From contig JSYX01000001.1 in the NCBI GenBank assembly GCA_000787465.1, positions 62,001 through 126,000 on the forward strand: 64,000 nucleotides of DNA, written 5' to 3'. The position numbers were made by a program, and so were the translations under genes. The notes beneath the pieces were generated by a model. The model worked only from the letters and a program-made list of their open reading frames with translations, did not search any database and had not been told where the DNA came from. The stretch is from Thermomucor indicae-seudaticae (Eukaryota > Mucoromycota > Mucoromycetes > Mucorales > Lichtheimiaceae). Shown piece after piece: positions 39,182 through 59,568 of the stretch (within the stretch, counting starts at the first letter, position 1; every line of letters starts with the position of its first letter).

Positions 39182-42100
39182 TTATTTCGGTTGGCCTGGC
39201 CATGCCGGTGCAAAAGAGCCGTCAAACTCGCCATAGAATCGATTAGACTCGACCACTCTGTGTTGCAGCCCACCAATAATTGCACCACACTGAGGGCATT
39301 TGGATAATTCCGTTGCGCCACCGCATTCACCTAGAGAAAAGTGTAATAGGATCAATAAATAAACGAAATAACGGAATAGTTAAAAAAAGTCCCGTACCGA
39401 TATAATAGGGATGTCCATTCGGACAAACGAACCATCGGCCACCAACAATATTGTGTATTCCCATACGTGCTTCTTCGTTCATGGCTTGAATGATGTCCGA
39501 TTTCTCGCGTTGTGATATTCGCTGCCGTGCCAGCTCCTGCCCTGCCTTGATATCGTTAACCAGCGCTATTTCTGTCTTGATATACATATTGTATCGCAGA
39601 GCCGTATAGATAGGTTTCTGACAGGACGGGCATTGCCAAAGCTTAATAGCTGTATGTTCACCGCTCTTTGCTTGATTCCGGAAATACATGTCCAAAGATT
39701 CAACCGAGAAAACTATTTTCTTGACATTTAGTCACGTGCTTCTCTGCAACAAGTCTCTTGTAGCCTAAATATACGTACCACAACCACATTCAGGTAACAT
39801 ATAAACTTTCTCGCCTTCCTCGAATTCTGACAGAGAGCGCAAGGAGATAGTGCACCGTAATTCTGGATTACATATTTTACAGGGCGGGCAGGGCTCACCG
39901 CACAAACCAGGACATGGGTGCCTATATGGGAAAAAGTTAGACCCCGCATTTCCTTTATTATACATTTTAACTAGGCGCAACTTACGAGCACTCGAGTCTT
40001 TTTCCGCAACTTTTGTTGCAGGGAGGTCGGTCACATTTCTAGTCTGATTGTTAGTATTCCATAAGAGGCCACTGCCTACTGTAACCCATTTGCCATACCT
40101 CGAAACACTTTTTGGTGCATGCAAGATGTATGCACTGCTTCGAAGTTAGTCTTTGAAAAGAGCCGTAATTAGTCCTGATACACTCACCGAGTAAGGACAA
40201 GGATTCATGCATTTATTGCAAACAAGGTAACACGCACGGCCACACCTGTATCCGTGAGAGCAAACCGATTGGCAAGGCTCCAAGCAGCGTTCTGTATGGT
40301 CTTCTGGATTCGCGCATCCTAACAAAAGTTGACAAAAAGTAAATACCAAGTGAGGATGCTTCTGTTTGTAACGTAAATGTCACCTTTGGCACAATAATGA
40401 CCGCAAATCAATTGTTTTGGGCAGGATGCAGTACAGTGCTTTCTAGTATGAGTCCTGTGATCCGAGCCACACTATGCAAAGTATTAAAGAATTAGTACGT
40501 AGTTTTCCGGGGCTCCTAAATTAACGTACTTTTTTTGGGCAGGGATGTCCGCACTCGAGCGGCTTTCCGCAAGGCTCAAGACATACTGGCTTATAACCAC
40601 AGGGCGTGATGACTGTATGGCCACATTCAAGAGTTGTACTCACAGACTCGATGCATTTTATCCGTTCCTTCTCTTGTGACCGCGTCCGATAGCATTCGAG
40701 GCGCTGAGTATGACCACAAGGAAGCGTGAATGCTGTCACTTGCTTGCATTGCCGACCAGTTTCTGCAGTAAGACTATGACAAAATCCCGAGATAGTATGA
40801 CCGCAAGGCAGCTGCAGAGTTCTCAGCTTTTGACAAGGAGGACACTGCCCAGATCCACACTCGTAGCACATGTTGGGGCAAGCATGCGAGCAGCCGGACG
40901 GGCGCGGTCTGTCGCATTTTTTGAGGCATTTGACGTTGTCATGGTTCATATGATGGCAAGTCTACGTTTACGGTTAATGCTTAAGGCAGGATACAATATG
41001 CGTTGTATATTTACTTGCCTCCTGACAAACATGGCCGCATTCTAGAAGTGTCCTACAAGGTTTCTTTATATTGTGTCAGCTTACGTCTGGGCAGCACTAT
41101 CGTCTAGATATCCTTTACCTCGCATCCTCCATTTTTCACTTTCTTAAAGTCTTCCCAGCGACCCACAGATGCTTTGCACTCCTTATGTTTCTGGCATTGT
41201 AGTTCGATTTCCGGAGCACACATATCTAAAACGCAGTGTGAAACAGACATTTCATACCGTATGTGATTCCAGCCTACCTTGACTTTTCATGTACTTGGCA
41301 ACGATATCCCAAACGGACCCTTCTACGACATTTCTCCTTCCAACAATATACAGGCCATATCTCGCCCGAGATAAAGCAAGCGACAAGTTGCAGTTTGGCA
41401 AAGTTTTGTTCATGGCCGCACTTAATGATAGGATCACGAACCAATCTTCCTTCCCAACGCGCTTATCGACTTCATCAATGATAATCTGGTCCGTCCCAGC
41501 CGAGAAACCAGTCTGTTTCGGTATATGCAATTTCATAACTAGTCGTATTAACTCTTTTTGGAGAGGTATGAGCGTCAAGATGCTTATTTTTGACGGCTTG
41601 TATCCCTGCTGGAGCAAGTATAAAGCCAAGTGACAGCTGAATCGAGCTTCGTCGACGTCAGTCTTCGTCAGCTCGGTATGCAGTGCTTTGCTAAACTCGT
41701 GATCCACTGCCTTCTCTTCATTTTCCTGATAATCGATAAAGAACGCCCGGCAACTCAAACCAAGAAGAGCCGGTGCTGAACGGTCTGCGACGTTTTCGCT
41801 TGCCATGGGAGCCGTAATCAGTAACCTTTTGTTAGCCGACGGACGAGCAAGCGAATCGTGAATTCGGGCGATATCTGCACACATCCTCCATTGTTCCTCT
41901 AAGCGTATAATATCGCCACCTGTTGATTTCCATCTTTCAAACAGAGAAATATCGAGATTCCGTGGCTCTCCCCTGAGAGCCGCGTTGTTCACCGTAGGTT
42001 TCTGCTCAGTGACCGCATTTCCAAGCATGATGATGTGCTCCACACGAGGGTTAAACAGAATAGGCGCGACAATCGGCTCCAGTATGCTTTCCGCCTCTTC

Positions 42101-45100
42101 CATGATCACAATACGTGGCCATAGCGCAGCTATCATATCATGATTCGCAGCTGCATATTCTGCTGTCATACCGATAATGCGATTAAATCTGCAAATCGAT
42201 AACCATTTTTGCTGACGAGCGTCTTCGACCACTTTTGATGCTTGAGCTTGTTTCGTCAAAAGTCGCTTAATCTCAGCGTCGATGTATTCCAGTAATACAT
42301 CTGCAATCGACTGTTGTAACCGCTTACGGGCAGCCACTGGTATTGACCACACTCTATTGGGTGATGTTTCAGCTGCCCACTTGGACATCACAGCTTTACG
42401 AACCTCCTGAGCACTGTGAGATGTGTGGAACGGCCAGTTTGTAGCTTGAACTAGGGGGACGATTTCCGGAATATGTCTATCGATCCAGTTTCTGCGTTCT
42501 TTGAACCATTGGCGGGTGAAAAGAGGCAATGTCTTTGAGCCGTAGTTTGAAGTTGGCGCGCGCCCCAGTGACTGGAAGATCGCATCTAGTCGTCTTATTC
42601 TATCAATTCCGTTCTTCGTTTGCCTCGGGTGATAACGATTATTGTCGTCATGCATATTGTCAGTGTCACCAGAGACCCATCTATCCCATATTTTCTCCAA
42701 CGACACGTCCCAGGCGAACTCCTTTGCCACCTGTACATATCCCTGTTTTAACTCGGACGCATACTGAGGAGGAATAGCCGTCACCATCACTCTTGGGTCG
42801 CGCTCCTCGAGACGCCATCGGTAGTGCCACAAAGCAGTCAGGTGTGCTTGAATGTTTGCCAAGCTCTTCTCTGTAATTTGTACGATCTTTCTGTTAGGAT
42901 CCGATGGACTCGGAGTCGCAAGAGAAACGATATGTCGGCTTTGTAGTCGCTCGTTTTCCGTGTAGTTGCCCACGCGAACAAATTCTAGACCGTTTGCAGC
43001 TATCCTATCCAGGATATCGTCGAGAGTTTCTTCGTTTTGCGTAAGGAGCAAAATGGGGTGATAACACTGTCCTGCTATCAACCCTTGGTGTATTAGCTCC
43101 ACCAATTTGCTCGTCAAATGTGTTTTGCCCGTGCCTTCCTCTCCTGATATCGCAGATACGCGGTTGGTAAGCGCGTTTTGAACGGCCTTGATCTGACTGG
43201 GAGACAAAGTGTAAAGCGGTGGCCTGTGAGACGGTGGTATAGCAAGTTGCTCTTCTGTGTGTCTTGGCCATCGTTTATCCGGGTCTTTTGCACTAAGGCT
43301 CGCAACACTTCCTTTCATTTTTTGTGACATAATGCACGAAATATCGAGCTCGATATTCTGCAGGTAATCTGGTACATCGTCTGTCTCGAAACCTCGTTGA
43401 CCATGATCTGGCTTTTTCTGGTCTGGAGACAAAAGTCTTGTTACAGTTACCTGCGAGAAATTCCAGTCTTCTAATTGCGTAGTGTTAGTGTAAAACCAAC
43501 GAAGTACTGAAAGGGACGAAGATGCGTTGACGCCGGTTGTAATCACAGTATATTCTTGAGACCAGTCAAAGTTATCCAAATGCTGTTGTTCCAAGTGTAT
43601 TCCCATGACGATCGACAATGGTTTGTCATAAAACTTTGCGGAATACAGTACAGCACCGAGGACAGCCGAAGAAGCGACGCTCGCCAGATGTTTGCGCTGG
43701 TTCACGGAGTTATCCTTGGCCGCTGGAATCAAAAGAGCCATCGATCCTTCCAATGGAAGTTCGCCAATGTTACTACTCGTTATTGTCTCCATAAAAACCG
43801 TAGGTTCATTTGCAGTAGATAAAAGCGCTGTTCCAAAGGGCCGCATGTTCGGGTATATTGCCCATCCTTCGTCCTTCCTTATATCGCAGGAACATTGATT
43901 CATGAGGTAATTCCGTAGGGCCAAGTGCAGCGGCCCGCAAACTTCCTCCCACAACAGCATGTAATAATTTTGCAGATAACTCGCTAAGTTTTGATAGGAT
44001 GACCCTGCTACATTGGCAGATAATCCAGCTTTGCAGTTTTCCTGCCATTTCTGGCGCCGCTCACGGTTTCTTGTATCGACGTCGTTTTCCGGATCCCGCA
44101 AAACGTCATGTAAGATATTTTCGCCAGTAGGAAGAACAGGTAAGGGCGTGCTTGGTTGAGAGTAGTCATTGTCCCAAGTATTGTCATTGCCCGTATTTTG
44201 CCAAGATTCCTCCAATTCTCCGGTTTGCAATAATCTGTTTCCGTTACTACGTGTGCGTTGTTCTGTATGCTGTACGGGAGTAAGCCTGGCGATATGGTCT
44301 TCTGCTTCTTTTGTCTCTTGTTTGTTGAAGATTGGCTTTATGAGGTTGTAGTGTTCCTTAATCAACGGTAAAGGGATAATTGCAGCGATGTCAGGATATA
44401 AGCCGACTATTAAGGAAAATAATCGTAATGCGGGAAGTAACTCTCGCGGTGTTGCTACGTATGCTCGCAAGTACATTTGAAATGTTGACATGAAGGATGA
44501 AATATACGTTCGGAGGGTTTTTGCTGTGCTCTGATCCATTCCGTTTGCATCGATATAACCATCCGGTTGCGGATCCATCATTTGCTCCTGATTGATCACA
44601 TGAATGAGAGCTTCTATTAACATGCTGTAAGTTCGAAAACTGAATTTCGGGCTCTGCTGCAATAGGAACTCCTGTCTCGAACGGAATGTTGAAATCGTTT
44701 TGCTTTTATACAAGTTTTTCTCGATCGCATGAAGAAACCGGTAAACCTCCAAATCGTATCCCCAAACAGTTGCGTCTGAGAATCCGGCTGCACCTGACGA
44801 TCCAGGAAAGGATGCTATAGGCTGCATGCCGTTGAACTGAGTGTAGATCGAATATAGACCCGTCGCGGCCGTAGGACTCTGGAACATTGGTTGCCCAGAC
44901 AACTGCCTAGCAGTGTTAATATATGGTACTTCGCGAAAGTTTTCGGTAGGCATGACAACTTGAGCTGATGAATTCCAATTGCTCGCCGTAGTCGTCACTT
45001 CTGCTTCTGGTGACCAACCAGAAGAAGGCTTAGAAGAAGGCTGCGAAGAAGCAACAACCTCTGCAAAGGAACGAGCATGTGTTTGTCTATGACTGTTGCC

Positions 45101-45804
45101 AGATTCACCATTGCTAAAGTCGTGTGAGGTCTTTCGAGACTTATCCTCTGGTTGAAAGTTCTGGAACTCTAACTCTGTTAACCATCCCTTTTTGACCTTC
45201 TTTTTCTCCTCTTTATCTAACTCCAAGTCGACACCTGATGTCCATAACTCCATCGCTTGCGATCGTAGTTTCTCGAACCCTTCTGTTGCTGGTGCAAACT
45301 TAACATTTACGTCGCTTCTTTGTGGGAAATCGTGCTCAGACTTTGCCGGCGTCCAAGGCAGCTCTGGCGAAGTTCTTTCTGCTCTGCTTTCTCCGTTAGA
45401 ATATCCATTCCAAGTAGAATCAGTTTTCCATTTCGGCTCGTTACTGATCAATTAGACGGAGCATATTAGACCACTTAATTGCCTCGTCCGTAGCATAGAT
45501 TCGTCACTCACTTTTCGTCAATCGGTAGATCCCAGCCCCCGTTGTGGTGAGAAGATGCTGAAAACGGCTCTGATTGCTGCGGCATGTTTGCAATGTAATC
45601 TTGTGGAAGTAGATCGTCCATTCCTTCTATTGAGCGTGAAGGTTCCGATCTCTTTAAAGAAGTACGTCGACCACCATTCTTTCCACAAGTTCCCGAATCG
45701 TAGGGGCTGCTTGTTCTAGACCCCACTGGTCTGTGAAAGGGAGAGTTTTTAAATCTTCGGACAGCCTCCGCATGTGCAGTTGGAAATGAGTTGTATCGCG
45801 ACAT
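39182..45804 (-). CDS. ZNFX1: ZNFX1-like SF1 helicase with NFX1-type and RZ-type zinc fingers
   Basis: Start ATG 45804; a short first exon (about 45508-45804) is followed by a 4.2-kb exon (41252 to about 45450) and several short zinc-finger exons to TAA at 39182. After a disordered N-terminus and an armadillo-like helical region comes an SF1 helicase of the UPF1/ZNFX1 group: TLSPSQIKAVQNAL (Q motif), GEEGTGKT (Walker A), IVIMEEAE (motif II), EEQWRMCADIARI (motif IV), LALSRARYGLYIVG (motif VI). The C-terminal exons hold a series of NFX1-type Cys/His repeats (CGHTISGFCH, LECGHTVITPCG, CGKPLECGHPCP) and end with an RZ finger (GRWFVCPNGHPYYIG, then CPQCGAIIGG), as in ZNFX1 and RNF213. In animals ZNFX1 acts in small-RNA inheritance and antiviral RNA sensing. 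Motif III is altered (see findings). Confidence 0.92.
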
Positions 45805-51005: not shown

Positions 51006-52775
51006 GGTGTCCAATTAATAAAGAGTGTGGGTGACCACGACTGAAAATTTATTTCAAAAATTGGACAAAAAAGCTCCTGTGTATATACAAAGACGTCCAA
51101 GCGAAAAAGGGTAACTTTGAATTTGTATAGAAGAAAGAAACGTCGTGAGTTATTACATGCCGTCCGGCTTCAAGTCGTAAAAAATATCGAGGTCGAGCAT
51201 GGCAAGACACCTATTATATCATGAGAATTCACATCAACAAGGCTGAATGGATCAACAAAGTATCTTTTTAGTCAGCTCACGATTTACCTCATTTGCAGCC
51301 GTCGAATTATCTTCTTCTTGGTCCGCAGAAGCACATCGATTATATGGCTTTCTTTCAGTTCAAATGTCTAGCAGAAAGAAAAAGTAGGCCAAAATGTCTT
51401 GTAATAGCACGGTGAAGTTGATAGGCTGATTATCGTCGATAGGATAAATCGGTCCAAAAAATGGTTCGTTAATATAAGTTGCAATGCTTGAGAGATTAGT
51501 CTAAAAGTAAGACAAAGGAAACACAAGGACGAATGCTTCTGTTAAACAGTTTTCTCTGATGGTTAGTTTGGTGTGATGAGGTACCAGAAAGGGTATGCAA
51601 TACATGGACAACTTCCATACTACAGATTCTCACATGAGCAAGTCCAGCAAGTAAAGAGCCGTGCTTATGATATGGGCCTTTTAAGAGGTTTCTCCCTTGA
51701 CGACAAGGCGCACTGACAACTGATGTCTCAAAATTAATTATGCTCGTACTTTGTGCCTGCTAGTACAGATATCCTTGAGAATAAAGTCATATGAAGTACG
51801 TTCTTGTCACCAGCCGCAACAAAGGAGACCAGACATCAATAAGTAGAAGGATGTAAGGCCGAAAGGTGAAATCATATCGCGTGTCTCTTTGTTTCTTTAT
51901 CTTCGGGTATGGAAGGCGGGTTAAGCATCTTTGTATTTTCTTTCGCGACAATCGAGTTTCTCATTAATCTTATTTTATTGTTAAACTTGCAAATGTTGCT
52001 TCAAATAGAAAAAGTCCGTGGTAATAATACTATTGGAGCTTGTTGACGCCCTCGAGTATGAATGGTCATCAGACATATCACGAGGCCCCGTATCGGCGGA
52101 ATGACTGCAAGCTGCTTTGAAGCATGCTAAGTGAAAATGATTGCGCATGGTCAATGACGAAAAGCCATTACGCTAATCGTTTAAGAGAAAATGGATGGAC
52201 GTCGACAAAACATCCGAACGGCCTCACCAACTGCTTTAACTGGACAAAAAAGTGTAACGTATATTTACATTATTCTTAAAGGGTTCTTCTTGCACAGAAA
52301 AGTCTTCGTAGATGCTGGCATGCGTACGTGTACACTAGTCGCCCGGGTCGTGACTCTAACTTCCACTTTCAGAGATCGTATAAGTCAGTTCTGAGTAAAT
52401 CTCACGAATTTTGTTAATTTTATCCGCAACGCATTATTTTCCGGTATGTAAACGTGTTCTAGAACGCATGAAACACTTGCTGAAACCAGGACTGTAGTGA
52501 ATGGAAAGTTTGGAACGATGAAAAACAAGCAAAGAGAAGAACAAAGAGCTCAGAGGAGGTCACGTTATTGGAACATGAGGATCACAAAAAAGGGTCTAAT
52601 CAGGCGAAGGCTAATTTCACGTAAATGTATTCAAGTTATGTTTGTGCACATAGCTAAGCAGATAAATTCTTTAATATCATAGATTTAGTACCCGATAGCC
52701 CCTATTTTTCAGTCATTTTGTGGGAAGTCGGCTTTGCAAGTGGTGCAAAATACACTTAAGAACAGCGCAAACCTC
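51006..52775 (+). repeat. unidentified repeat, copy 4
   Basis: It starts with ATTAATAAAGAGTGTGGGTG and carries ATTTACCTCATTTGCAGCCG (about 51280), CTTGGTCCGCAGAAGCACAT, CAAATGTCTAGCAGAAAG (about 51360), GAGGTACCAGAAAGGGTATG (about 51578), TCACCAGCCGCAAC (about 51807), a T-rich block (about 51886), GAAAATGGATGGACG (about 52188) and a Lys-rich-looking stretch at 52500-52670 without a conserved frame. Confidence 0.75.
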
Positions 52776-53597
52776 TAACCGATAAAGAGTATAGGTGACC
52801 ACGACTGCAAATTTATTATCTAAAAAATTGTACAAAAAGCCATTGCGTAGACACAAAGCCGTCCAAGCCAGAAGAGGGGCAATTTTGAAAGAGTATAGGA
52901 GAAAGAAATGTCGTGAGCCACTGGCTTCAAATCAAACAAATGTTGATGGCGAGCGTGGAAAGACACCTATCATATCATGAAAATTCGCATTAACAGGACC
53001 GTTTGCATCAACAAGATATCTTGATAATCAGTTCAGCATTTACCTCATTTGCAGCCACCGGATTATCTTCTTCTTCTTCTTTTCGGTCCACAGAAGTACA
53101 TGGTTAGTGTAGAATTTTTCTCAGTTCAAATGTTTAGTAGGGAGAAACAGTAGGTCACAAATCTCGTAGATGGGATGGTACGGGTAAAGTTGATAGACTG
53201 ACTCTTGTCGATGGGATTAATGGGTCGTAAAAGAAGGTTCGCTTATATAAGTCTTGATGTTTGAGAGATAGCGCACAAAAAGTAGCCTGAATATGAGACA
53301 AAGGAGACAGAAGAACGAATGCTTCTGTTTAAATAGTTTTCTCTGACCGTAAGTTTGGTTTGATGACGTACAAAAAAGGGTATACAATATATTGACGACT
53401 TTCATACCACAGCTTCTCACATGAGCAAATTCGGTGAATGAAGAGCAATGATTATGACATGGACATCTTTAAGAGATCTCTTGCTTGACCGCAAATGCAT
53501 ACTGACAACTGATATCCAAATGTTAATTGCGCTTTTACTTGATGATACACTCGCACGCATGTCCTAAGGAAAAGGCGAAGTGAAATACATTTTTGTA
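52776..53597 (+). repeat. unidentified repeat, copy 5 (truncated at the MITE)
   Basis: Closest to copy 4: GATAAAGAGTATAGGTGACC, ACCTCATTTGCAGCCACCGG (about 53043), CGGTCCACAGAAGTACATGG, CAAATGTTTAGTAGGG (about 53127), GACGTACAAAAAAGGGTATA (about 53363). It stops at ATACATTTTTGTA, exactly where the MITE begins. The downstream half seen in other copies does not resume beyond the MITE. Confidence 0.75.
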
Positions 53598-54013
53598 CAG
53601 GAACCACTCTGTGTTTGCAACCCTACTTTTTGCGAGGAATATAAAACGGATTATATCGACCAATGACATGCTTTATTCACTTAGCGGAGGAAGAATTTTT
53701 GACGGATGCTTGTTTCGAAAATGATTATCGCCTCAGTTCATCCTACAGCCGCCCGTGCTCTTCTTCGTCCAGAAAACTGATAACGTTATTGATGTACAGA
53801 AAATTTTCCCTTGCAGTGAATTGAGGTGCCAAAGCTTCTTCTTTCGTGACTTTAGCAAGTGCTGCAATTCTGCCGTCATTTCCATGGGTAGAACTCATCT
53901 ATCGCTACGCGTTAACAGAATGGCGGTTCGTGTCATACCCGCCTTTTTGCAACCCTCGGGTTTTGCAACGAATTTTCAGGGAATCGAGGCGTTGCAAAAA
54001 GGAGGGATTACTG
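53598..54013. mobile_element. 416-bp MITE-like element flanked by TA
   Basis: Both ends sit next to TA (53596-53597 and 54014-54015). The left end reads CAGGAACCACTCTGTGTTTG and the right end, reverse complemented, reads CAGTAATCCCTCCTTTTTGC; about 20 of the first 28 positions agree. The right subterminal region holds further copies of a TTTTTGCAAC motif in both orientations (53942-54000). CAGT-like termini, TA duplication and subterminal repeats fit a pogo/Fot1-type or other Tc1-mariner-superfamily MITE. No coding capacity. Confidence 0.65.
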
Positions 54014-54075
54014 TACGTATACAAATAGCGTCCAGAAAGACGCTGAGAGTTAGTTAGCTGAGCGGGGCCCCATTA

Positions 54076-55150
54076 CCTGTAGTTTGCCAACGCTTCGGAC
54101 AGAAAGGCCACAAGGACGCTCGCAGTGGCGCTTGCCCCTAGAACGGTAAGTTGAATACGTAGGGTGAACCGCCAATTCACTGACGAAGGCCTTTTCATAG
54201 CAAGAGAAAAAAAAAGAGAAAAGAACGAGAAGAGGATGAGCAACGTGAAAACGTGAAGCTAAGCGTCGACGAAAGGAGATTCTCCGGCGGACCACAGCAG
54301 GATCCTGCAAAGCCTGCGTTCAGGCCGGAATATACGATGCAGCGGCAAATCCGCAGCCTAGCCGAAGATCTCCTCGATGTGCGCGTCATTCTCAAGACAT
54401 CAATAATTATCTACAAGCGGCACTTGGTGAATATTGTCAGCGGTTCAGTATCAAAATAGGCCTCGACACGGTAGTGCGTCTACCTGAGCCGCAAAAGAGC
54501 ACTTTTATGGACGTCACGACAAGATTAGTCGATTTTATACGGGAAGTAGCAATCAAGTCAAACTGGTTCGCCAATTACTATATACTTTCCCACCTTGAAA
54601 ACCAAGGCGTTGGACAGGCTTTTTCCTTTTCTCAGTTCTTTTTTTCCGGATGACAACTCGTGCTCGGCCGCGAGGTCAGCAGCGACCAATTGTCATGCCA
54701 GGAGATGACTGCTTGTTTCAATCAGCTGAAGTCATACCACCCAACGATTACGATGTCGGCCTTCCTAGCCGGGATAGGGAAGTTGCCCAGTATTTCCGGG
54801 AGATGCCGAAATGTGCTGAAAAGGGCAGAATCTGCTGGAAAGCTTGCGGTAGTCGAGCTCGACGAGCGCTATACTTCACAGGTGCGAACAATCAGTTACT
54901 TTGAACCTATAACTTTATAACCTGCTCTTTTGTTCAGGTATGCCACAATTGTAAACAGGAAAGCTAGGAAAGCTTAAAAAACAACAACTTGGTTGCGGAG
55001 AACCGCTGGAGACTATACACCGCTTTGGTTTGCAAAGCCTGTAAAACGATATGGAAGCGAGATCTCAACGCAAGCAAGAACATATACAGCATCGCGTTTT
55101 CACGCGCTGAAGGCCATGGCAGACCAGTAGCTTTTACTAACACAGAATAA
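54076..55150 (+). pseudogene. Fanzor (eukaryotic TnpB-like RNA-guided nuclease) relic, internally deleted
   Basis: N-terminal traces are zinc-knuckle-like: CQRFGQKGHKDARSGAC (54085-54135), then a stop, then SCKAC (54303-54317). One frame is then open from about 54252 to 54881 except for a TGA at 54648, with NWFANYYILSHLENQ and FSFSQFFF, then LVLGREVS, ending KLAVVELDERYTSQ. A 56-nt GT-AG intron (54882-54937) leads to VCHNC, an in-frame TAG (54965), then ALVCKACKTIWKRDLNASKNI and TAA at 55148. The D/E-x-RYTS motif, paired CxxC and W-x-RDLNAS (RuvC-III Asp at 55061) are the C-terminal signature of TnpB/Fanzor. RuvC-I and RuvC-II are missing, so it cannot be active. Confidence 0.7.
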
Positions 55151-55261
55151 CAGAGTCACCCAATCCTCGCCATAATTAGAAATGGCTTGACGTTTATGGT
55201 AAGATCGCCATGATCATCACATGTCAACCTCATGTTCTTCCTCACAGACTTCTCATAGGTA

Positions 55262-55287
55262 CACTTGAGGGCAAAAGTTAAGGCACG
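55262..55287 (+). repeat. left terminal inverted repeat of Tc1 element
   Basis: Begins CACTTGAGGG directly after the TA target site; it pairs with 56581-56607. Confidence 0.9.
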
Positions 55288-55375
55288 GTCACTGGCGTCA
55301 CCTAAAAATTCTACAGTATAGCTTGAACTTTTTGCATCTTTTCTTTTCTGCACTTTTTACTTATTGATTCTGCTC

Positions 55376-56389
55376 ATGGCTACTGTAAACGACTCTGCTG
55401 CTGCTCCCAAAACACGCTGCAAGCTTTCGTCCAAGAAACGTGCGGTCATTGTTGCTTTTCACCAAGACGGATTGTCACTCAGTCAAATTGCGGCCAAACT
55501 TGGAATGAAGAAGTCCACTGTCAGAACTGCGGTGAACAAGTTTAAGAAGACTGGAATGACGGAGACGGCGACGCGTTCTGGAAGGCCCTCCAAGCTCAGT
55601 GCACGCGATCTTCGTGCCATCAAGCTCAGTATCCGGCGCGAACCGATTCGACCGCTCAGGTGGCACCATCTCCGCTTCTCAACCTCGGTAAAGTCAATCT
55701 CTTTGAAGACTTTCTGTGCTGCCGTGCGCAAACTGGGCTTCCAATCGCGCGTCCCAGCAAGGCGGCCGCTGCTGACTGTCAAGCAGAAGATCAACCGGCT
55801 GCGATGGGCGCGCGAACATCTTAATTGGACGCCAGATCAGTGGCGAAAGGTCATTTGGTCTGATGAGTCGCGATACTGTCTTGTTGGAAATGATGGCCGC
55901 CGCCGCGTGCTGCGCTTGTCTGGCGAACGGTATTTAGACAACCATGTTGTGAAAACCGTAAAGCATAGAGGCGGATCTGTCATGGTCTGGGGTTGTTTTT
56001 CAGCAGAAGGAGTTGGCCCTCTGACGATTGTTGATGAGAACCTGGACCAAGATGGATATATCACCATCCTCGGCCAGACATTGTACGGATGGCTCGAGGA
56101 AAAGTTCGGCATTGATCATCTTTTTCAAGAGGACAATGCCTCATGCCATGTAGGTAAGTTTGCCCGATGGTGGAAGCGCCAAAGGGGAAAACTGCATGGA
56201 GGGGTGGCCATCCCAGAGTCCCGATTGAACACCATCGAGCATCTCTGGGATGAGCTTGAGCGGCGCATCGCCAAGCGAAGACCATATATTACAAGCAAGG
56301 AAGCTCTTGCGCAGGCATTGAAAGCGGAATGGCTGGCCATCGAGCCGAACATTTGCGAGAAGCTTGTAGCCAGCATGTCTGATAGATGA
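55376..56389 (+). CDS. Tc1/mariner transposase (DD34E)
   Basis: An intronless frame from ATG 55376 to TGA gives 337 residues, the normal length for Tc1 transposases. The N-terminus has two helix-turn-helix motifs (LSLSQIAAKLGMKKSTVRTAV and the region around RPSKLSARDLRAIK, with a GRPSK linker). The catalytic core shows VIWSDESRY (first Asp), FQEDNASCH (second Asp) and IEHLWDELE (Glu), with 34 residues between the second Asp and the Glu. The GGSVMVWGCFSA signature is present. The usual SPDLNPIE before the Glu reads ESRLNTIE here, so activity is not assured. It would excise and insert the element at TA. Base composition is richer in GC than the surrounding AT-rich repeats. Confidence 0.95.
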   Translation: MATVNDSAAAPKTRCKLSSKKRAVIVAFHQDGLSLSQIAAKLGMKKSTVRTAVNKFKKTGMTETATRSGRPSKLSARDLRAIKLSIRREPIRPLRWHHLRFSTSVKSISLKTFCAAVRKLGFQSRVPARRPLLTVKQKINRLRWAREHLNWTPDQWRKVIWSDESRYCLVGNDGRRRVLRLSGERYLDNHVVKTVKHRGGSVMVWGCFSAEGVGPLTIVDENLDQDGYITILGQTLYGWLEEKFGIDHLFQEDNASCHVGKFARWWKRQRGKLHGGVAIPESRLNTIEHLWDELERRIAKRRPYITSKEALAQALKAEWLAIEPNICEKLVASMSDR

Positions 56390-56580
56390 CGCGCTGTAAT
56401 TGCAGCCCATAGAGGCTATACTCGCTATTAAACACTTCCTAATTTTTTTTGCATAATCTGAAAGTATATGATGGACACTTCTAATACTATGAGTGTCGAA
56501 AGTTGAGACCGTCTGGTTGGCTAGGTTTCATGCGTCAAAGGATACTCTATTGTTTCTCTCGTTTCGGATTTGAAGGAAAT

Positions 56581-56607
56581 CGTGCCTTAACTTTTTACCC
56601 TCTAGTG
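56581..56607 (-). repeat. right terminal inverted repeat of Tc1 element
   Basis: CGTGCCTTAACTTTTTACCC then TCTAGTG, followed by TA at 56608-56609; inverted match of the left end. Confidence 0.9.
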
Positions 56608-56815
56608 TATGTCGAGAGAGATCAATTGCCGATGTACTGGTTTTTGAAGTAATGTTTGCGTTGCTCGAAAGGTCTCTTTTGCGTAAAGCATAAACCAAAA
56701 TTTGCGGTAAGCAGAAATTCAGTTGCGCCGAGCATGAAGCAGAATTTACGTCAGTGCAAACCATATTTGAACCGAAGGAAAGGAAGAGTAATTGCGCGCA
56801 ACTAATATTACACAT

Positions 56816-57473
56816 AGCTGCGACAGTTTGGAACCATTCTTTGGTTTCAGTCAGAATGACTGATCACAGCGACGTATGATGGTCATTTTCGTATAAAAAG
56901 CTAGCCCTCGTTTGTTTCAGTTGGAGAATTTGAGACGTGTACGGGGGTTGTGGCATGCCTTGTAGTCACCAAAAGACATTATATGGTATAGCATCCATCA
57001 CCCGGAAAATCCCCATTCTTCTTCAATTGCATTGCTTGGTTGAGCATTCCTCGGGCCAAGATAAGGTCTTCTTTACACCTTAATACATGAGGAAGTTACT
57101 CAAAATTGAGTACATTTTGTAAAGTGACTGTTTTTGCATTGCTTTACTTTGCTTCATTTCTCCAGGTTTCCCCGTAGCAAAAAATGGGTTGATGCCTACA
57201 GGGTAAGGCTTCTCTTTGCTTTTTCCTTACTTGCAGTGGATGCTAAATGATGCACGCAAATTCTATGTTTTTGGATACGCAAATCTGATTCGTACAACAC
57301 GCAATATTCTGTGTCCTGCGCTGCAAATTGTCATATACAATTACGCGAAAATCTTGTAGAAATCCTTTAGAAATCCTGTAATACTGATACAAAAGTTTTC
57401 GATTTCCTCGAACAATGCAGTAATAGACAATGCAAATGCGAAGTGTTTACAAAAAAAAGAAGCAACGAATGCC
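56816..57473. other. intergenic region downstream of La
   Basis: About 660 bp of AT-rich DNA between the split ORF and the La stop codon. It should include the La 3' UTR. No gene or repeat copy was recognised. Confidence 0.4.
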
Positions 57474-58603
57474 TTATTCTTGGGCTTTGTTATCGCCTTC
57501 CTCAGCAGCATTTTGTGTGCCATCCTCCTGCTTAGTCTCATCCTCCTTCTTTTCGGTCTCGGTCTCTGCCTTCTCTTCGGCCTTTGCTTCAGTCTTTCCT
57601 TCAGCGTTTTCATCAGCGTCCTTTTTGCTCTTCTTTTGACCTCCAGTGGTCTTCTTTTTTGACTGGAACTCTTCCTCACGGAATGCGTTGAACTTTCGCT
57701 TTTTGCCAGAAGGCTTCCGTGGTTGATCTTTGTAGAGCTCAGCCTTCTCTTTAACGTATTGCTCCCTACGTGCACGAATTATGTTAATTCCATCGTATTC
57801 GATTGGACTTGACCAACGAAAACGTACTTCATCTTTAACAAAAGATCTTGACCCTCGAACTGCAGTTTCTTTTGTACAACAGCCTCTGCTTCCTGTGGCG
57901 TTGAAAATTCCACGAATACACTGCCCTGATAATATATGTGGACATGGTTAGCTACTACGCGCATCCTCTTCAAAGCGACAGTTCTTTGTTACCTTGAATT
58001 TGCTGGGTCTTTCGTCTGTCTTGCGCAATCGCACAGCGTAGACTGTTCCATGTTCGCTAAAGAACTCGTCAACCTTGTCCTGCAACTCCAGCAATCGTTC
58101 CTGCGGATTCTCGACGTCCTGATCAACCAACGGGAACCCTTTCTGTTGCAGTGCATGGATTGCCCCAAATCAGTACTATATGAAGCAATGTAAAAATGGT
58201 CTGATATTTTACCGCATAAATGGTTCTCGGTGTCATGTTCTGTTCTACGAGTGGTGTTTTGCGTCGGATTTGAGTGCCAGCTTCATTCAGTTCATAAAGT
58301 TCGGATGGCTGAGACTTTAGAGCAGAGACAACGGTGTTTAAGTCCTTTGTTAACATTTGCATTTTCTTGAAGCTGGCAATTGTCTCCAGTGGAACCCCTT
58401 CAATAACCGCACATCAGCGTCAACATCCTGGCGTCTTACCGAGCTCTACCCCAAACCATTTACTTACAGCCTTCGGCATTCTTCTTTGTCAAGGTCCACA
58501 AAAATTTGTCGAACGGCAAATTTGAATCGCTGAAATAAAAGTTGACTTGCTTAATGATCTTTCGCTGAATGACGGGATCTACGGTTGTGGTTGATTCGCT
58601 CAT
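57474..58603 (-). CDS. LHP1: La ribonucleoprotein (La motif plus RRM)
   Basis: Multi-exon gene from ATG 58603 to TAA at 57474. The La motif is [20 protein letters not shown], then DKFLWTL, and [16 protein letters not shown] across the first intron. It ends with [19 protein letters not shown]. The RRM follows: TIYAKGFPLV (RNP2-like), [20 protein letters not shown] and GSVFVEFST (RNP1-like). The C-terminus is Lys/Glu-rich ([13 protein letters not shown], then repeated [14 protein letters not shown] text), as in Lhp1 and animal La. The protein binds UUU-OH ends of Pol III transcripts in the nucleus and guides tRNA processing. The exon borders at the four introns noted (for example the G-T split before WVPLE) keep the frame. 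Neighbouring P450 starts divergently. Confidence 0.93.
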
Positions 58604-59568
58604 GGCTTTTGGTGGACGCGTCTAGGGAAGAAGAACTTGGACAACAGTAAAAAAATTCCTTTCGTCTCAACCTTGCATGGCCGTGACTGTGCTGCATTTT
58701 TCATCGGATCGCCATTACGATCAAAGAAGAGGAGTGTAGGTTTTTGGCCACCTCCATTTTGCTACACAAGTGTTGGTCCTCTCGTCGCCGACAACGTGAA
58801 GCACGACTCAAGTGCACGTTTGGACAGGCCTTTCCGCCGTGAGACACATGGTAGAGCCAAAGCATCTTACGCACATTTGACGATCAATCCGCCCGTGATC
58901 TGCATACGGAGTCTTTTGATTTAAGGGCTCAACTCTTTAAACAGTGCCGCGTCATTGTTTCTTCGTCATCATAGCACAAGCAAAACTTTCCGGCAATTTC
59001 TTTTACGCCAAGTGTTTGACTTACCATTTTCCGGCAAGAATGAGTCAACTTTCCGGAAGAAACGATCCGATGGCCAATGCTTGGTCCTTTCCACGTGTCC
59101 GGACTACGTAGGCACATTGTCGGCCTCAGTTTAGTCAGATTTCCCCCAAAGGCGGGATATTTTTGCGAACGGGCTAGGCCGGGCCAAGCCTGGGCCCGGC
59201 CTAGCCCACCCGTTGTGCGGGACCGTGCAGGACCAGAGCTAGTTTTCCTTGAGGAGTAGCGTTTGTGAGGGTGAATGAAGAGAGCCAGAGGTATCTTTTC
59301 GCCTCGAGTATCGTGGCGCATGTTGATCTCCGGTCAACAAAAGACAATGGGCTGCGAAAGATTGAAAGCCAGCCAACTTTTTGATCTGTTTACCAATGCG
59401 ACGGAGGCGGCGCCGAAATTCTTGCAGGGGAGAAGCCAAAACACATGTTTAGCCTAAACCAACGGCCCATTTGTATTAATCGGACATTTCCTTTTTCCGC
59501 TCCATATGATTCCGTTAAATAAAAACGCGCCATCGTCTTCCAAATTTCCTCAATTCCCGTCGTTCAGT
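58604..59568. promoter_or_regulatory. divergent upstream region of La and the P450, with hairpin
   Basis: 965 bp between two divergent starts. Three TTTCCGG sites lie close together (58987-58996 and 59028-59037, both TTTCCGGCAA, and about 59050-59058, TTTCCGGAAG), a possible repeated regulator site. A perfect 15-bp GC-rich inverted repeat is at 59171-59185 and 59193-59207. No gene is supported in between. Confidence 0.5.
59171..59207. repeat. perfect 15-bp GC-rich inverted repeat with 7-nt loop
   Basis: The left arm GGGCTAGGCCGGGCC pairs exactly with the right arm GGCCCGGCCTAGCCC. The loop is AAGCCTG. It is far more GC-rich than the surrounding DNA. Confidence 0.88.

Follow-up and report, generated by a model that had tools for sequence, protein, structure and literature searches.

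The window, i.e., the whole stretch of 64 000 nucleotides that was analysed, is C1:62001-126000 of the Thermomucor indicae-seudaticae assembly (24.8 Mb, 735 contigs). Judged from its sequence, the stretch 54079-55150 is a decayed, 5'-truncated Fanzor gene. A hairpin, a nested Tc1/mariner element and a multi-copy repeat (referred to as r2) lie 3' of it (Table 1). A dispersed repeat, r1 (~53640-54016; 75-87% to eight other contigs), is situated directly 5' of the relic and ends in the palindrome CCTTTTTGCAACCC...GTTGCAAAAAGG. All the peptides quoted in an earlier, sequence-only reading of this DNA were located in the window, as was its 56-nt intron: KLAVVELDERYTSQ at 54840-54881, FANYYILSHLENQG at 54567-54608, VCHNC at 54938-54952, VCKAC at 55028-55042 and WKRDLNASKN at 55052-55081, with the stop TAA at 55148-55150. 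The upstream zinc-knuckle traces and the FANYYILSHL helix mentioned there were also found, and they match the relative on contig C220.

Table 1. Features of the Fanzor relic and its 3' neighbourhood (positions in the window).
Feature	Position	Strand	Evidence
Decayed N-terminal zinc knuckle (CX2CX4HX7C, second Cys replaced by Phe), VVCQRFGQKGHKDARSGACP	54079-54138	+	22-aa match of 63.6% to the C220 knuckle VCKRCQNRGHKDARSSECP, E 1e-5
N-terminal region: second knuckle-like block (SCKACVQAG...RCARH) and helical domain (FANYYILSHL)	54216-54605	+	Two C220 matches of 53% (60 aa, E 1e-15; 70 aa, E 1e-22); 48-52% in genome search; in-frame TGA 54237, 54246
Remaining N-terminal region past in-frame TGA 54651-54653	54654-54761	+	Same frame; resembles C174b LVLGGRVTN..REAMTACFEVFKT by eye
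Deletion junction; WED/core and RuvC-I lost	54743-54772	.	Left side placed by eye against C174b; on the right, DNA matches begin at 54772 (C622) and 54773 (C220)
Exon with RuvC-II alternative Glu (DERYTS 54861-54878)	54773-54881	+	46% to C126 over 35 aa, E 2.5e-6; 86% DNA identity to C622
Intron, 56 nt, GT...CAG	54882-54937	+	Frame switch and sequence
Exon with zinc ribbon (two CxxC), RuvC-III RD (RDLN 55058-55069) and TAA stop; in-frame TAG 54965-54967	54938-55150	+	PF07282 over cut-off; 88% to C108
Hairpin GCCAT/ATGGC with GGTAAG at its end, candidate omegaRNA scaffold	55164-55203	+	R1 model 52.2 bits (training row); covariation
Speculative intron-like stretch, GTAAG...CTTCCTCACAG; this copy lacks a second GGTAAG	55199-55247	+	Sequence; second-GGTAAG pattern in other copies
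Nested Tc1/mariner element; transposase frame 55376-56389	55262-56607	+	TIRs; TA on both sides (55260-55261, 56608-56609); PF01498 over cut-off, PF13358 28.0 vs 28.6
Ghost-like repeat r2 (~740 bp, multi-copy), no Fanzor ORF	56632-57371	+	At least 52 matching genome stretches, own included, up to 95% besides itself
Scaffold-like hairpin inside r2	57166-57207	+	R1 27.8 bits, E 5e-6, outside training set

The zinc-ribbon/RuvC-III end matched the Pfam profile Cas12f1-like_TNB (PF07282) with 48.4 bits (E 1.1e-12; cut-off 26.3) when the intron was left out and an X placed at the stop, and the C4 zinc ribbon is followed by RD within 5-50 residues. When the organism's own genome was searched with PF07282, 37 matches were obtained, 35 of them over the curated cut-off; exon 2 of the relic alone is one of the 37 (27.3 bits). 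The Glu of DERYTS stands six residues ahead of the first CxxC (E-RYTSQV-CHNC), giving the pattern E-x6-CxxC...CxxC-x6-D. An alternative RuvC-II Glu ('Ealt') six residues before the zinc finger has been described for Fanzors (PMC10711439; this and the other papers cited here by PMC number were available in part), and the placement of the relic's Glu fits this type, whereas its two CxxC stand further apart than the 12-18 given in the published pattern. The RuvC-II Glu and the RuvC-III Asp thus survive in the relic, and the RuvC-I DPG is deleted; hence this copy was filed as a relic and not as a working member. As the relic itself lacks RuvC-I, its membership among Fanzors rests on homology.

The relic begins at the zinc knuckle, and its N-terminal sequence is joined directly to a point shortly ahead of the RuvC-II exon. 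The missing stretch, read off ORF positions, amounts to ~1.15 kb relative to C220 and ~1.7 kb relative to C260. The sequence-only reading had placed it at 54790-54830, but the junction is ~20-50 nt further 5'; the DNA match to C622 (86%) resumes at 54772. It had also taken both RuvC-I and RuvC-II as lost. This holds for RuvC-I but not for RuvC-II, since the Fanzor-type Glu is kept. Five stops, rather than the two counted earlier, are in frame with local homology (54139, 54237, 54246, 54651 and 54965), confirming the decay that had been proposed; the one at 54139 directly precedes an intron-like GTAAGT.

Relatives elsewhere in the genome had been expected, and Fanzor matches were found spread over dozens of contigs. 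At the DNA level, C622 (86%) and C108 (88%, from 54928 onwards only) are nearest to the relic; C622 retains traces of the RuvC region. C220 has both ends, with 48-52% protein identity in the N-part and 64-77% in the C-part. It may be noted that in C220, the closest fuller relative, a minisatellite (C220:26790-27025) occupies the place where RuvC-I is expected (by eye). The fuller relatives C126, C154, C260 and C316 carry RuvC-I as LWAIDPG; at this position C611 has IDPD, C591 has VDSG, and C368 and C4 have DFG. The alternative RuvC-II Glu is also present in C126, C154 and C260. Two blocks, one VPLVAFGDAKF-like and one reading D-E-Y-x-[TS]-S-Q-V-C or close to it, are common to these three and C611, as judged where the 3' half of the relatives was covered. 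C126 and C260 have the QRD motif, and their first cysteine pair is CX4C, not CxxC. Several fuller copies possess N-terminal knuckle-like blocks, and C591 lies within a 677-aa open frame. The spacing from D to [TS][TS] was 188 (C591), 177 (C368), 184 (C4) and ~228 (C126, two exons joined by hand), compared with the published Fanzor motif D-X(125,275)-[TS][TS] (PMC3627910). The PF07282 match, the Fanzor-type Glu and the LWAIDPG of the fuller relatives together bear out the Fanzor-relic reading. Two outcomes that would have spoken against it, best matches to an unrelated zinc-ribbon family and full-length homologues devoid of RuvC-I/II, were looked for and neither was encountered.

Sequence searches of the PDB gave weak matches only, the best being a TnpB-type OrfB chain (E 0.11), with SpuFz1 at E 0.23 and PpFz1 absent from the matches; a PDB search with C591 gave no match. 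Protein homologue searches yielded 3, 1 and 1 relatives only, and the C591 protein (P0004) had no match among viral contigs. An AlphaFold2 model of this protein (pLDDT 33) was dropped as useless.

Fanzor1 is known from Mucor, Rhizopus, Phycomyces and Spizellomyces (Bao and Jurka 2013, PMC3627910). The relatives found here share its C-terminal motif, D-X(125,275)-[TS][TS]-XX-C4-RD, and like it are variable at the N-terminus. In Rhizopus, Phycomyces and Mucor, one element each has been reported to have MuDr-like TIRs; such TIRs were not recognised here, and the tandem N-terminal zinc knuckles were not met in the available part of that Fanzor1 description.

The mariner element 3' of the relic has TIRs, a TA duplication and a DDE transposase, as expected of Tc1/mariner; the transposase frame is of 337 aa with DD34E spacing (counted by eye). 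The relic lies outside this element, as the left end of the mariner adjoins it. Some Fanzor1 elements have been captured by mariners (PMC3627910), and at C344 and C575 a right TIR of the same mariner family as in the window lies within ~100 nt after the hairpins, in the orientation that puts the Fanzor inside. These two loci are L076 (C344:21570-21870) and L078 (C575:13250-13550). From this arrangement, the Fanzor at C344 and C575 may be mariner cargo; the mate TIR was not found at either with up to 1 mismatch. No inverted repeat joining both ends of a Fanzor copy was found.

Three further observations concern neighbouring repeats and genes. The 5' flank of C316 (L053; 936-1188 of the C316 stretch, on the reverse strand) has a 94% inverted match to the 3' flank of C589; reading this as a MuDr TIR was dropped because no copy matched its own other end. 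At L059 (C108:38600-42200), the inverted arms at 463-759 and 2158-2621 of the reverse strand, which are 74-91% alike, end just 5' of the Fanzor fragment; as both arms are 5' of the C108 Fanzor piece, another element seems to abut it. A 1399-aa open frame with AAA_11/AAA_12 helicase domains is present at 41252-45451 (-) of the window.

When the 3' flanks were compared, a block conserved across protein subfamilies was observed, corresponding in the relic to 55164-55203. The sequence-only reading had raised the idea of conserved DNA just 3' of the ORF, and a covarying hairpin is what was found there. In 39 flanks (those outside the first 20 loci, a subset of the genome matches), the hairpin occurred in one of two forms in 29, the relic included: 15 had the one-hairpin form, as has the relic, and 14 the two-hairpin form. 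The other 10 (C248, C303, C177, C263, C647, C7, C509, C523, C378 and C12) showed no clear hairpin. A pattern search of the genome returned 7 matches, against 0 in the reversed control, all just 3' of Fanzor C-terminal sequence (partly by eye); four were copies from which the pattern had been drawn, and three (C560, C653, C184) were new.

Covariation was assessed against shuffled alignments. For ten copies, 94% of cells paired, a value attained by 3 of 500 shuffles; two-sided cells were matched by 2/500, pairs with two-sided changes by 32/500 and pair types by 477/500. With six more rows, 95% of cells paired and 9 were two-sided (0/500 shuffles for both), while pairs with two-sided changes were reached by 7/500. 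The R1 model was strong in 5 of 14 newly fetched flanks (the 3 that the pattern had picked out and 2 of the remaining 11), but on 15 more flanks gave none at E<=0.1; many R1-negative flanks showed the two-hairpin form by eye. The one-hairpin form in 25 rows (15 Fanzor, 10 r2) had 94.4% paired and 22 two-sided cells, each reached by 0/500 shuffles; pairs with two-sided changes were no higher than in shuffles (227/500), and pair types gave 44/500. The helix of this form is only 5 bp long, and RNAalifold alone recovered 3 of its 5 pairs in the 25 rows.

The two-hairpin form was aligned with MAFFT (A2; 14 sequences, selected by eye ahead of model building). RNAalifold alone gave two hairpins, with 7/9 pairs compensated. 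In A2, 92.9% of cells paired, and the percentage paired, the two-sided cells and the covariation score were each reached by 0/500 shuffles; pair types were no more numerous than in shuffles. Slid versions of the alignment paired at 33-51%. The R2 model was strong on its own members only and weak at C294, C260 and C149 (E 0.24-0.78), and R1 and R2 barely cross-matched. Of 20 flanks of the best PF07282 matches, 12 were similar by eye and were aligned as A3, which was too ragged for testing; R1 matched none of the 12.

Conserved sequence runs ~50-350 nt past the hairpin in several groups and in r2 (partly by eye), which does not fit the published omegaRNAs, and a guide starting right after the hairpin at the edge of the element is not apparent. 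Rfam gave one chance-level match in window 52000-59000 and none in the pieces of nine relatives. The 3' motif contains stops and differs by a 1-nt indel between subfamilies, and for this reason it was not taken to be coding.

The SpuFz1 scaffold, of 75 nt with two stems and a linker, lies downstream of its gene (Saito 2023, PMC10432273), and the RNA seen here is likewise structured, has two stems and lies just 3' of the gene. PpFz1 of Parasitella parasitica, a protein with a cyclophilin-binding FRI insertion, has a short omegaRNA whose second stem is only 4 bp, comparable to the one-hairpin form of the relic (PMC11423790). In position, size and two-stem form, our hairpins fit the published omegaRNAs. 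The scaffold of SpuFz1 spans the 3' inverted repeat and the flank serves as guide (PMC10432273), whereas here conserved sequence continues past the motif. On these comparisons, the hairpin RNA is probably the guide scaffold (omegaRNA) of the Fanzor. An intact protein of the family would then bind the structured RNA transcribed just 3' of its own ORF, and would presumably cut DNA matching the guide that follows the scaffold.

The repeat r2 was counted from genome candidates, 40/46 of which were scored. When R1 was run over 208 kb, three matches below E 0.01 were obtained: the relic, C11 (32.2 bits) and the hairpin within r2 of the window; the latter two were not in R1 training. C11 contains a partial copy of r2. 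Eight further r2 pieces, cut where the motif was expected, all matched R1 at E<=0.04, and 7/8 did so at E<=2.1e-4 (1088 bases searched). The stems in r2 vary in a paired way (CCCGU/ACGGG, CCUGU/ACAGG), and the hairpin is ~165 nt from the r2 3' end. No clear inverted repeats were found at the r2 ends, and no other r2 DNA was common to the compared Fanzor loci at E<=0.01. Fanzor-less ghost loci carrying the omegaRNA region occur in Spizellomyces punctatus (PMC10432273); those repeats are of ~550 nt, against 740 here, and r2 differs from them in having no clear TIR. It is possible, on this analysis, that r2 is a ghost Fanzor locus.

A further feature of the motif is the donor-like sequence at its end. 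Tails of 30 copies were measured, picked for ending in something like GTAAG; left out were, among others, C253, C141, C344, C575, C476, C4 (a two-hairpin copy), six A3 copies and all r2 copies. A donor-like G[TC][AG]AG (variants include GTAAG, GTGAG and GCAAG) directly followed the scaffold in 22/30. A second GGTAAG occurred within 95 nt in 13 of these 22; 12 of the 13 fit an intron, since that of C288 is only 14 nt on. In the other 8 tails, the spacing was 7-13 nt or unmeasurable (C622), and none had a second GGTAAG. The background was 129/5716 windows of 100 nt. Nine of the 22 were without the second GGTAAG, and the relic belongs to these nine, as do C108 and C220, its closest relatives; in the relic, the stretch would cover 55199-55247, and GGTA stands at the mariner insertion point. 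These counts come from tail rows that are related (e.g. C33/C346, C611/C560, C198/C587/C645) and from definitions written after seeing the sequences. A branch point and acceptor after the scaffold were present in 11/29 copies, as against 76/456 GTRAG controls and 5155/40000 random places, in a weak test whose rows are not independent.

From its sequence, this stretch looks like an intron inside the RNA, present in some copies and absent in others, a feature by which many copies here differ from SpuFz1 (PMC10432273). A more far-reaching proposal is that the Fanzor scaffold here (stem 1, optional stem 2, UUUAC, 4-13 nt, GGUAAG) is interrupted by a spliceosomal intron in many copies, so that splicing is required before the guide RNA is mature, and that r2 supplies further scaffolds in trans. 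We regard this as tentative and rather doubtful. In the available part of PMC10432273 the string 'intron' occurs 0 times and 'splic' once, and 'intron' occurs 0 times in those of PMC11423790 and PMC10711439; the idea may be published elsewhere.

The presence of the hairpin in a repeat with no Fanzor ORF, the conservation that continues 3' of it and its splice-donor-like GGTAAG end would also agree with a transposon end, or a generic 3'-processing element of several transposon families, in place of a guide scaffold. We think this unlikely. The hairpin is found just 3' of the stop in Fanzors of highly diverged sequence, and the 7/7 pattern matches at such positions point the same way (with the reservation that 4 are pattern sources and the placing was partly by eye). 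The two-stem form, with a short or missing second stem, matches published omegaRNAs, and published ghost loci are likewise without a gene (PMC10432273). A guide scaffold remains the preferred reading of the hairpin.

As for the gene, its best PDB matches are TnpB-type OrfB proteins, as would suit a remnant of TnpB or Fanzor2 (IS607-type), or prokaryotic contamination, rather than Fanzor1. Such an origin is very improbable: the alternative Glu together with DPG is a Fanzor feature (PMC10711439), the gene has introns and a long N-terminal region, Sec7 and PPR genes lie in the same window, and dozens of contigs carry Fanzor matches. It is hardly credible that the truncated gene was retained as a working, nuclease-dead RNA-binding protein, given its in-frame stops, lost zinc-knuckle Cys and 5' truncation; the RuvC-II Glu, zinc ribbon, RuvC-III and RNA hairpin are still recognisable, but the hairpin has 4 differences in 38 from that of C108 (by eye), similar to the 88% of the whole stretch. 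A decayed Fanzor1-type relic with a mariner just 3', from a family whose intact members would work like other Fanzors, is in our opinion very likely the correct explanation as a whole. We infer the following order of events. A Fanzor1-type element would have inserted at the site and would then have been shortened at its 5' end; an internal deletion would have removed the core and RuvC-I, with stop codons accumulating, and a Tc1/mariner element would have inserted just 3'.

The relic itself is ordinary for a Fanzor-bearing genome; what is worth following is the RNA family and the ghost-like repeat r2. A single genome here holds dozens of diverged Fanzors, many of them beside a readable, covarying RNA, and also a Fanzor-less repeat with the same hairpin. 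With such a set in one genome, RNA sequencing of one organism could directly test how omegaRNAs evolve, what the ghost loci are and whether splicing takes part in the maturation of guide RNAs.
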